The position numbers and the translations under genes are program-made. Below the pieces are notes generated by a model. That model was given only the letters and a program-made list of their open reading frames with translations, did no database searches and was not told the DNA's origin. Of a stretch of 50,122 nt of DNA, positions 7,257 through 22,196 are shown in pieces. How positions within the stretch are numbered: position 1 is the first letter of the stretch; each line of letters opens with the position of its first letter. The stretch lies in contig DATKDW010000044.1 in NCBI GenBank assembly GCA_035512495.1, forward strand, positions 1-50,122. The letters are read 5' to 3'. The stretch comes from Acidimicrobiales bacterium. Lineage in GTDB: Bacteria; Actinomycetota; Acidimicrobiia; Acidimicrobiales; CADCSY01.

Positions 7257-8449
7257 CCGATCGGTGCCAGCTGGTCGAGGGCGACGGCGGTGTGCAGGGC
7301 GATGCCGGCGGCCATGGCCGACTCGTCGAGCACCATGCGGTTGGAGTGGTTGGGTGCAGGGGGACGTGGTCCGTCGGGCATCGCCCCGAGGAACACCATG
7401 GCGCCGGGCACCTCCTCGAGCACGTAGGAGAAGTCCTCCGCCCCCATCACCGGGCTCGGCAGCTCGATGACCGCGCGCTCGCCCACGACCGTGGTCGCGA
7501 CCCGGGCAGAGGTGGCGGCCATCCCAGCGTCGTTGACCGTCACCGGGTAGCCCTCGTCGATCGTGACGGTGGCGGTGGCCTCGTGGGCGTCGGCGATCCC
7601 CTCGGCCAGCCGGCGCAAGCCGTCGAGGACCTGCTGGCGGGTCCGGGCCGACACCGCTCGGAGGGTGCCGGTGAGGTGGGCCGCCTCCGGGATCACGTTG
7701 TTGGTGGTGCCGGCCTCGATCTTGGCGATGGTGAGGACGGCCGGGTCGAAGGCGTCGACCCGGCGGGTGATCATCGACTGGATGGCCTGGACGATCTCGC
7801 AGGCCACGGGGATGGGGTCGAGGGCCTGGTGGGGCATCGAGGCATGGCCGCCACGCCCGGTCACCGTGATCCGGACCACGTCGGCCGAGGCCATGAACGG
7901 GCCGGGTCGGGTTGCGATCATGCCGTTCGGGATCGTCGGGGTGATGTGGATGGCGAAGGCGCTGTCGGGCCGTGTGTCGCCCTCGAGGAGACCCTCCTCG
8001 ATCATGAAGCGGGCGCCGTGGTGGCCCTCCTCGCCCGGCTGGAAGGCGAAGACGACGCGGCCGTGGAGGAGCCCCCGGCGGGCGTGCAGCAGGCGGGCGG
8101 CGCCCACGAGCATGGCCACATGGGCGTCGTGGCCACAGGCGTGCATGGCGCCGTCGACCTCGGAGCGGAACTCGAGATCGGTGTCCTCCGGCATCGGGAG
8201 GGCGTCCATGTCGGCGCGCAGGAGCACGGTGGGTCCGGGTTGGTCGCCGTCGAGCACCGCCACCACCGAGGAGACGCTGGTGCCGGTGCGCAGGTCGAGG
8301 TCGAGACCGTCCAGCTCGGCGAGGACGGTCTCCTGGGCCCACGGCAGGTCGAGGCCCAGCTCGGGCCGGCGGTGGAGGCGCCGGCGCAGGTCGACGGCCG
8401 CCTCCATCTCGGAGGCGGCGGCATCGAGGAGGTCGGACCGGGGCGTCAT
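7253..8449 (-). CDS. M20 family metallo-amidohydrolase (AmiA/HipO-like)
   Basis: A 398-residue zinc aminoacylase/carboxypeptidase-like enzyme. N-acyl amino acids or related amides are the usual substrates. LRRRLHRRPELGL is the family's N-terminal signature. ACGHDAHVAML carries metal ligands, and QPGEEGHHGARFMIEEG the catalytic/bridging Glu pair. The dimerisation (lid) domain is in the middle (GRGGHASMPHQALDPI), and C-terminal GAEDFSYVLEEVPGA supplies the last metal-site segment. It is a complete, cytoplasmic-looking enzyme. The ATG at 8449 is preceded at 6 nt by CATGCT, a variant of the -10 hexamer seen elsewhere. Its substrate is not deducible from the neighbours. Confidence 0.9.
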   Translation of the reverse strand: MTPRSDLLDAAASEMEAAVDLRRRLHRRPELGLDLPWAQETVLAELDGLDLDLRTGTSVSSVVAVLDGDQPGPTVLLRADMDALPMPEDTDLEFRSEVDGAMHACGHDAHVAMLVGAARLLHARRGLLHGRVVFAFQPGEEGHHGARFMIEEGLLEGDTRPDSAFAIHITPTIPNGMIATRPGPFMASADVVRITVTGRGGHASMPHQALDPIPVACEIVQAIQSMITRRVDAFDPAVLTIAKIEAGTTNNVIPEAAHLTGTLRAVSARTRQQVLDGLRRLAEGIADAHEATATVTIDEGYPVTVNDAGMAATSARVATTVVGERAVIELPSPVMGAEDFSYVLEEVPGAMVFLGAMPDGPRPPAPNHSNRMVLDESAMAAGIALHTAVALDQLAPIG

Positions 8450-8494
8450 GGCGCCAGCATGGCATCCGGCGGCGCGATCCTGCCCGGCGCCCGG

Positions 8495-8500
8495 TAGCGT
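8495..8500 (+). promoter_or_regulatory. -10 hexamer for tRNA-Val
   Basis: TAGCGT sits 12 nt upstream of the mature tRNA-Val 5' end, which would leave a precursor leader of about 5-6 nt for RNase P. No confident -35 is seen. Confidence 0.45.
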
Positions 8501-8512
8501 CTCGGCCTTCCC

Positions 8513-8586
8513 GGGCGCGTAGCTCAGCTGGCTAGAGCACCTCCCTTACAAGGAGGGGGTCGGGGGTTCGAGTCCCTCCGCGCCCA
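8513..8586 (+). tRNA. tRNA-Val (TAC anticodon)
   Basis: A 74-nt cloverleaf with acceptor GGGCGCG/CGCGCCC, D-arm TAGCTCAGCTGGCTAGAG, anticodon loop CTTACAA inside a CTCC/GGAG stem and T-arm GGTTCGAGTCC, discriminator A. The next two bases are CC and then a GTG, so CCA is not fully encoded. A SET-domain open reading frame starts 2 nt after the tRNA body. Confidence 0.96.
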
Positions 8587-8588
8587 CC

Positions 8589-9023
8589 GTGGGCACCGAG
8601 ATGCACCGTCCTGAGCAGGTTGAGGTCGTCACCGGAAGCGGTGACCTCTACGTGGCGCCGTCGGGGATCCAGGGAAACGGAGTCTTCGCCGCCCGTGCCT
8701 TCGAAACGGGTGACCTGGTGGAGCGGGCGCCGGTGCTGGTGTGCCCCGCTCCCCAGGAGTCACTGCTGGAGGAGACCGACCTGTGGGGCTTCTACTTCGA
8801 CTGGGGCGGCGGCGCCGTCGCCATCGCGCTCGGGTTCGGGTCGCTGTACAACCACGCCTGGCGCGCCAATTGCCGCTACGAGCACGACGTCGAGCTCGGG
8901 ATCGTCGACTTCTACGCGGTCCGGCCCATCACCCCCGGCGAGGAGGTCACCGTCAACTACACCGGTGACCCCGACGGCACCGGCGAGCTCTGGTTCTCCA
9001 CGGACGACCCCCCGCCCTCCTGA
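8589..9023 (+). CDS. SET-domain protein (putative protein lysine methyltransferase)
   Basis: A 144-residue protein that is essentially one SET domain, the AdoMet-dependent lysine methyltransferase fold. GIQGNGVFAARAFETGDLVE is the N-terminal SET strand pair. LYNHAWRANCRYEHD corresponds to the NHxxxxN knot, and GEEVTVNYTG to the GEELxxxY motif with the catalytic Tyr. The usual Cys-rich post-SET segment is absent. GTG 8589 is 2 nt past the tRNA-Val body; ATG 8601 is the alternative. Neither has a ribosome site or a -10 hexamer of its own, so the mRNA may come from tRNA read-through. The last 67 nt overlap the convergent membrane-protein gene. The substrate is unknown. Confidence 0.75.
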   Translation: MGTEMHRPEQVEVVTGSGDLYVAPSGIQGNGVFAARAFETGDLVERAPVLVCPAPQESLLEETDLWGFYFDWGGGAVAIALGFGSLYNHAWRANCRYEHDVELGIVDFYAVRPITPGEEVTVNYTGDPDGTGELWFSTDDPPPS

Positions 9024-21312: not shown

Positions 21313-21338
21313 CCGCCACCGCGACCTAAGGTCGTGCC

Positions 21339-22196
21339 GTGCTCGTCGACAGCCTCCGCTTCCTGCCGCGCAGCTTCGCCCCGCTCTACGAGTCGGCCGA
21401 GCCGCTCCCGGGCGAGGACGACGAGGTGTGGGCGCCCTTCGAAGGACGCCTCGCCGACGCCCGCATTGCCCTGGTGAGCTCGGCAGGGCTCTACCTCGAC
21501 GGTGCGCAGCCCTCGTTCGACCTGGACCGGGAACGCCGGGAGCCCACCTGGGGCGACCCCTCCCACCGGATCCTCCCGGCCGATGCCGCCGATCGGCCGC
21601 TCGGGATGGCACACCTCCACGTGAACCCTGCCGATGTGCTGGCCGACCCGGACGTGGCCCTGCCCGCCCGCGTGCTGGCCGGGTTGGTCGACGATGGGGT
21701 GGTCGGTGGCCAGACCGAGCACCACGTGTCGGTCATGGGCTACCAGGAGGCGGGCCTGGACGTCTGGCGCAGCCGCACCGCCCCCGATATCGCCGCCCAC
21801 CTGCGCGACGAGGGCGCCGACGGCGTGGTGCTGGCCCCGGTCTGACCGGACTGCTGCAAGAACGTGCCCGTGCTGGCACGTCGCATCGAGGCCGAGGGCA
21901 TCCCCACCGTGGTGGTGACGATGATGCCGTCGGTGGCCGAGCAGCTGCGCACCCCCCGCATCGTCGGGGTGGAGTTCCCGTTCGGCCACCCCTTCGGGAT
22001 GCCGGCCGGCCGTGCCGTGCAGCGCCGGGTCCTCGAGGCGGCCCTGGTGGTCCTCGCCGGGGCCTCTCGTGCCGGCACCCGGGTCGACCTCGACATCGAG
22101 TGGCCGCAGCCGCGGGGTGAGGCCTACAAGGCCTGGCAGCCCTCCGAGCCGAGCCCGATCGTGGCCGCAATGCTGGGGCAACGGGACGGCACCTGA
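21339..22196 (+). CDS. GrdB/PrdB-like selenoprotein (in-frame UGA = Sec169)
   Basis: One 285-codon frame is interrupted only by TGA at 21843-21845. Before it is GADGVVLAPV, after it PDCCKNVPVLARRIEAEG, so the site reads PV-U-PDC, a Sec-x-x-Cys redox motif at the place where GrdB/PrdB (glycine, sarcosine, betaine, D-proline reductase selenoprotein B) relatives carry Sec. The downstream part continues the family (FPFGHPFGMPAGRAVQRRVLEAAL). A 7-bp hairpin follows 16-36 nt after the UGA. GTG 21339 is 6 nt behind TAAGGT. Relatives outside Clostridia are stand-alone and of unknown substrate, so a thiol/selenol reductase role is inferred. A nonsense mutation is the alternative but would not explain the motif and hairpin. 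Convergent with the hydrolase-cyclase gene. Confidence 0.85.
21843..21881 (+). promoter_or_regulatory. UGA codon plus bacterial-type SECIS hairpin
   Basis: After the UGA (21843-21845) come 16 nt, then the perfect 7-bp stem ACGTGCC (21862-21868) / GGCACGT (21875-21881) closing the 6-nt loop CGTGCT. The loop begins 23 nt after the UGA and has G in its second position followed by T, within the limits generally given for bacterial SECIS elements read by SelB. It is inside the coding region, as in bacteria. No selA, selB, selC or selD gene is in the window. Confidence 0.7.

Follow-up and report, generated by a model that had tools for sequence, protein, structure and literature searches.

D-proline reductase and glycine reductase, the closest described systems, both require a proprotein that carries a pyruvoyl group (PrdA and GrdE), represented in Pfam by the model PF09338. 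PrdB-type selenoproteins were also recorded in marine data: 42 of their genes were found in the Sargasso Sea in 2005, where they formed the third most abundant selenoprotein family (PMC1088965), and 235 such proteins were counted in the GOS survey of 2008 (PMC2398784). Aerobes made up 40% of the selenocysteine (Sec) users in a survey of 2016 (PMC5029168). A first-pass annotation of the DNA examined here had presented its gene as a Sec reductase placed outside the clostridial setting. The novelty of this was overstated, since non-clostridial PrdB-type selenoproteins were known from both the Sargasso Sea (PMC1088965) and GOS (PMC2398784) collections.

The window (the whole stretch of 50,122 nucleotides that was analysed) is contig C44 of draft genome G000 (2.80 Mb in 97 contigs, 96% complete). 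The features of interest are the following, each with the evidence on which it was placed.

21327 to 21332, plus strand: TAAGGT, a candidate leaderless-type -10 element (TANNNT) 6 nt before the GTG (comparison of upstream regions)
21339 to 22196, plus strand: selenoprotein gene with a GTG start, 285 residues including Sec169, 'UPDCC' subfamily of the PrdB superfamily (TGA read-through, orthologues)
21843 to 21845, plus strand: in-frame UGA for selenocysteine 169 (column shared with clostridial PrdB, all 26 named loci and all 30 aligned loci of the class)
21843 to 21857, plus strand: Sec-Pro-Asp-Cys-Cys, the UxxC redox motif, residues 169-173 (39-sequence alignment, AlphaFold2 model)
21862 to 21868 and 21875 to 21881, plus strand: stem of a bacterial SECIS hairpin, with the loop CGUGCU at 21869 to 21874 (published bSECIS limits, frozen synonymous sites, pairing conservation)

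Translation of frame 21339-22196 on the plus strand confirmed that it crosses one internal TGA only (21843-21845) before the terminal TGA at 22194-22196. The residues around the internal codon are GADGVVLAPV-U-PDCCKNVPVLAR, with GVVLAPV-U-PDCC as the local reading. As had been anticipated for most gene callers, a mechanical ORF list split the gene in two, giving an ORF of 168 aa (21339-21845) and one of 110 aa (21864-22196). Coding selection persisted past the UGA: against locus L067, for instance, the differences there numbered 14 at first, 14 at second and 47 at third codon positions.

Family members occurred in 94 of the 296 genomes of the same class that were searched, and the 12 nearest orthologues (51-68% identity) each displayed one TGA. 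The TGA column was identical in all 30 class-wide loci that were aligned; these comprised orthologues and three paralogous subfamilies with the motifs UPMCHRSVGL, UPVCHQSVGL and UPLCxRTV. When named genomes were scanned with a profile of the orthologues, 26 loci emerged, 23 belonging to the clade and three (L072-L074, from Myxococcota and other MAGs) to a sister group, and all 26 had TGA at the exact Sec column. Orthologues were 51-72% identical over their whole length, with the same TGA in each. Hosts of the named loci included Acidimicrobiia, other Actinomycetota, MAGs of Rubrobacter and Geodermatophilaceae, Chloroflexota, Dormiibacterota and Bacillota, many of them metagenome bins whose individual taxon labels may be wrong. 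Alignment of residue 169, a check proposed with the first-pass annotation, thus returned Sec in all close orthologues, and Cys (L118, L131 and L081) or Ala in rare, distant homologues only; no orthologue displayed an ordinary sense codon at this place.

Some relatives showed peculiarities of their own. Two UPLC-type loci (L079 in G158 and L080 in G194) had Ala at the Sec site (TPVAPMC and APVAPMC) and selA was undetected in both genomes; catalysis was possibly lost there after loss of the Sec trait. Locus L069, from a Bacillota MAG, contained tandem PrdB-like Sec genes (8001-8846 and 8963 onward), each with an in-frame TGA, one being UPECC (UPDCC clade) and the other UPVCHQSV; this arrangement could represent a two-subunit form. 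In three genomes (L082, L084 and L085), a conserved gene of 102 residues overlapped the 3' end of the UPMCHRSV-type selenoprotein gene.

Downstream of the UGA, the sequence ACGTGCC / CGTGCT / GGCACGT forms a hairpin of 7 bp with a 6-nt loop having G at its second position, followed by U. It starts 16 nt after the UGA and its loop lies 23 nt after it, so the geometry given in the first-pass annotation was correct. The published bSECIS model calls for a loop of 3-9 nt, a stem of 4-16 bp, a G within the first two loop positions, a distance of 16-37 nt from the UGA and an MFE of at most -7.5 (PMC13188914). With a local folding energy of -11.2 kcal/mol (z -2.1), the window hairpin lies within every one of these limits. 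Taken as a whole, however, the 45-nt stretch had a stability ordinary for GC-rich DNA (z -0.02), so that proof of the SECIS had to be comparative. Among 26 codon-aligned orthologues, the third bases at the four consecutive fourfold sites of V176-P177-V178-L179 did not vary, whereas the 124 other fourfold sites had an average entropy of 1.38 +/- 0.31 bits, and the hairpin was the only trough of frozen synonymous sites in the gene. The 6-bp core of the stem was retained in 23 of 24 loci, and L071 displayed a compensatory change of the closing C-G pair to U-A, both sides having changed. With the TGA conserved, the hairpin sites frozen and the coding bias maintained 3' of the TGA, a pseudogene and a sequencing error were both ruled out.

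The sister subfamilies displayed a separate hairpin lying six nt closer to the UGA, with xGUxx loops in nearly all cases. Pairing was present in 94.4% of cells (18 distinct sequences), and the covariation score reached 0.484 against 0.184 +/- 0.039 for shuffled controls (0/500) and at most 0.076 for slid controls. The distance from the UGA to the SECIS loop was 23 nt in UPDCC members, as against 17 nt in the sister group and the remaining subfamilies. Between UPDCC and these, the hairpin is hence shifted by two codons, while the Sec codon is fixed.

The search for Sec machinery suggested by the first reading was carried out on the same genome and returned all four components. A tRNA-Sec with a TCA anticodon scored 67.5 bits (gathering 47), selA (381 bits) adjoined selB (269 bits) on contig C25, both over cut-off, and selD (378 bits) was located on contig C83. 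This selD (L018, G000:C83:68638-69561, minus strand) is a selenoprotein gene too, the codons for its active site, GAGUAGK, including an in-frame TGA. On the combined sequence evidence, the UGA at 21843 is read as a selenocysteine codon and the gene as encoding a real selenoprotein. At the level of the class, 88 of the 94 genomes that have a family member also have selA, compared with 113 of the 202 that have none (Fisher P = 5e-12, uncorrected for relatedness); among genomes with a close orthologue the figure was 13 of 13. Four genomes (G174, G188, G234 and G292) displayed a family match but no detectable selA, likely owing to draft incompleteness.

Assignment to the GrdB/PrdB family proved right and could be narrowed to PrdB. 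The read-through protein matched TIGR04483 (PrdB) at 1e-30 with 106.8 bits, below the cut-off of 300, whereas the true PrdB of Terrisporobacter reached 423.7 bits; against PF07355 it scored 17.4 bits, below the gathering threshold of 22, over profile positions 218-345 of 347. The earlier label 'unannotatable' was thus fair in the narrow sense that the protein stays below Pfam and NCBIfam cut-offs, and in that sense only. PrdB proteins of Acetoanaerobium, Terrisporobacter and Ligilactobacillus were about 31% identical to the window protein, with U at the same column. In the maximum-likelihood tree, the clade of the window protein was split off from the other subfamilies by a branch with 99/97 support, and PrdB was separate with 100/100 support. 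By these comparisons, the window protein is classified as a member of the PrdB superfamily outside the D-proline reductase equivalog, in a clade of its own, 'UPDCC', that is composed of Actinomycetota and Chloroflexota with some members assigned to other phyla. The NCBI UGSC selenoprotein model gave a weak match (E 1e-4), well under its cut-off, to the Sec region of a true PrdB (L100, 3865-4590), a hint that both families may be remotely related.

A PF09338 profile search of the window's genome, a 96%-complete draft, found no proprotein of PrdA/GrdE type. The same model did detect PrdA in two true prd operons (L100 and L101), which served as controls. It matched in 20 of 296 class genomes (about 7%), and among the 13 genomes with a close orthologue it was present in one and absent from 12. 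Genuine Grd-like complexes exist in a minority of the class: PF09338 places, including L075-L078, encoded glycine-reductase-type proproteins, and at several of these places a GRDB gene with TGA lay alongside. As for the Stickland context evoked in the first-pass annotation, the window protein does not count among the subunits of known Stickland reductases, no partner of PrdA/GrdE type having been found.

No prd genes were found near the window gene and no recurrent gene cluster, shared neighbourhood or conserved operon was found across the UPDCC clade. The genes directly beside it were unrelated in the different genomes (acyl-CoA dehydrogenase, CNNM transporter, PhzF, sigma factor, metallo-beta-lactamase and glyoxalase). 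A link to the acyl-CoA dehydrogenase gene 26 nt upstream was considered and dropped because the pairing is not recurrent and the gene apparently has its own leaderless promoter. The latter had been reported in the first-pass annotation: TAAGGT is indeed present, and TANNNT elements, picked by eye, stood 6-9 nt ahead of the start codon in 11 of 13 upstream regions of actinobacterial type. Other UPDCC members displayed a Shine-Dalgarno-like AGGAG rather than TANNNT. The upstream motif is suggestive of a single gene that is transcribed without a leader.

The window's genome encodes two copies of haem-copper oxidase subunit I, so that aerobic respiration of the host is likely and its description as aerobic-looking holds.

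The AlphaFold2 model built from the 39-sequence alignment was confident (pLDDT 95.1, pTM 0.93) and showed an alpha/beta protein. Strand 162-166 is followed by U169-P-D-C172 at the N-terminus of helix 170-185, and redox CxxC and UxxC motifs usually sit at a helix start after a strand. Residues U169, P170 and C172 were invariant in the 39-sequence superfamily sample, while H92, H94, H129 and W143 were invariant within the clade and may line the substrate site. A phmmer search for solved relatives returned none with E up to 1, a profile search of solved structures gave weak matches only (the best, at E 0.007, being a designed protein), and Foldseek with the model gave no match at E <= 0.001. The best VIA-align match was microcystinase C (Z 8.7, within the range which the tool calls common). 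The Asp/Glu-racemase-like fold suspected from the sequence pattern was absent among the structure-search matches, all of them weak, and no fold relative is claimed.

These results bear on what the gene is and on what its product does. Taking the TGA as an ordinary stop, which would leave a 168-residue protein followed by a second cistron, agrees with the two ORFs of mechanical lists, but every close orthologue, and PrdB too, has TGA and never TAA or TAG in this column, neither protein identity nor coding bias breaks off there, and both a SECIS and the full Sec machinery are in place; that reading has virtually no chance of being right and is already refuted in practice. It also appears very improbable that the protein serves as catalytic subunit in a reductase for D-proline or a related amino acid, with a pyruvoyl subunit that is encoded elsewhere or was missed in the draft. 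End-to-end alignment with clostridial PrdB, with its shared Sec column, and the roughly 7% of class genomes with PF09338, several having it beside their own TGA-bearing GRDB genes, speak for such a role. Yet PF09338 was absent here and from 12 of 13 close-orthologue genomes although the model detects real PrdA, the score of 106.8 is far from the TIGR04483 cut-off of 300 (424 for true PrdB), prd genes were not found nearby and the organism encodes haem-copper oxidases.

A function in oxidant defence or repair, the UxxC protein being a thiol or peroxide redox protein and not a metabolic reductase, deserves somewhat more attention but is still unlikely. Neither sequence nor fold searches revealed a thioredoxin fold, and the invariant H92, H94, H129 and W143, far from the motif, suggest a substrate pocket, even though UxxC as a selenol redox motif is generic, the host probably an aerobe and the gene a lone one, with a probably leaderless mRNA and without pathway neighbours. 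We consider it rather probable that the gene encodes a real selenoprotein of a distinct partner-less clade within the PrdB superfamily, and that this is most likely a small-molecule Sec-x-x-Cys reductase. The broader proposal, that UPDCC proteins constitute a pyruvoyl-independent selenoenzyme class of oxygen-respiring Actinomycetota and Chloroflexota, which would use the Sec site of D-proline and glycine reductases for a reaction new for selenoproteins within a non-fermentative metabolism, we regard as evenly balanced.

For such a partner-less reductase, the following scheme can be proposed. From an mRNA that is probably leaderless in many UPDCC cases, SelB and tRNA-Sec would decode the UGA at 21843 as Sec, guided by the hairpin that begins 16 nt after it. 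The resulting protein, usually encoded by a lone gene, would act without a pyruvoyl partner (PrdA/GrdE). The selenolate of Sec169, at the helix tip, would attack the substrate, Cys172 of the UxxC motif would resolve the intermediate, and the Se-S bond so formed would be re-reduced by a dithiol system of the cell. The Sec site, the SECIS, the Sec machinery, the clade, the lack of a detected partner and the UxxC geometry in a confident model are shown by the results above, with strong evidence from the conserved sites. The reductase step is most likely in view of homology and the UxxC motif, from which we infer the chemistry, and with it a substrate and an electron donor.

Ocean PrdB-type selenoproteins, among the most abundant there, carry the label 'proline reductase'. 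Family members in the class were found mostly in genomes without the required pyruvoyl subunit, so most of them are probably mislabelled. Standard gene calling truncates these genes at the UGA, and the UPDCC clade stays below the cut-off of every curated model. The window gene, which stands alone outside any operon and has a defined Sec site, offers a clean test case for the use of an old active site in aerobes, and it is further evidence that non-fermenting bacteria commonly use selenocysteine. A literature search of incomplete coverage found no paper on the partner-less clade or its function.

Compared with selenoprotein B (GrdB/F/H; PF07355, TIGR01918), the window protein shares the core domain around the Sec site. 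Yet it matched only the second half of the 431-435-residue GrdB/F/H models, so that the full-length architecture is lacking, and no proprotein of GrdE type was found in its genome. The 'PrdB' of the Sargasso Sea and GOS surveys (PMC1088965, PMC2398784) are UxxC selenoproteins of PrdB type outside Clostridia and probably belong to the same broad family as the window protein; these surveys included no analysis of subfamilies, hosts or partners, and PrdA does not appear in the GOS text (PMC2398784). PrdB-type selenoproteins outside Clostridia were therefore already known, and what is new here is a partner-less subfamily missed by curated models. With respect to PrdB of D-proline reductase (TIGR04483; Terrisporobacter, Acetoanaerobium), the window gene differs by the absence of PrdA and of a prd operon, by a score far under the TIGR04483 cut-off, by UPDC instead of UGTC at about 31% identity, and by its N-terminal extension and C-terminal tail. 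Yet both proteins display a homologous core and a UxxC motif with Sec at the identical column, and in PrdB, as in the window gene, a hairpin follows the UGA.
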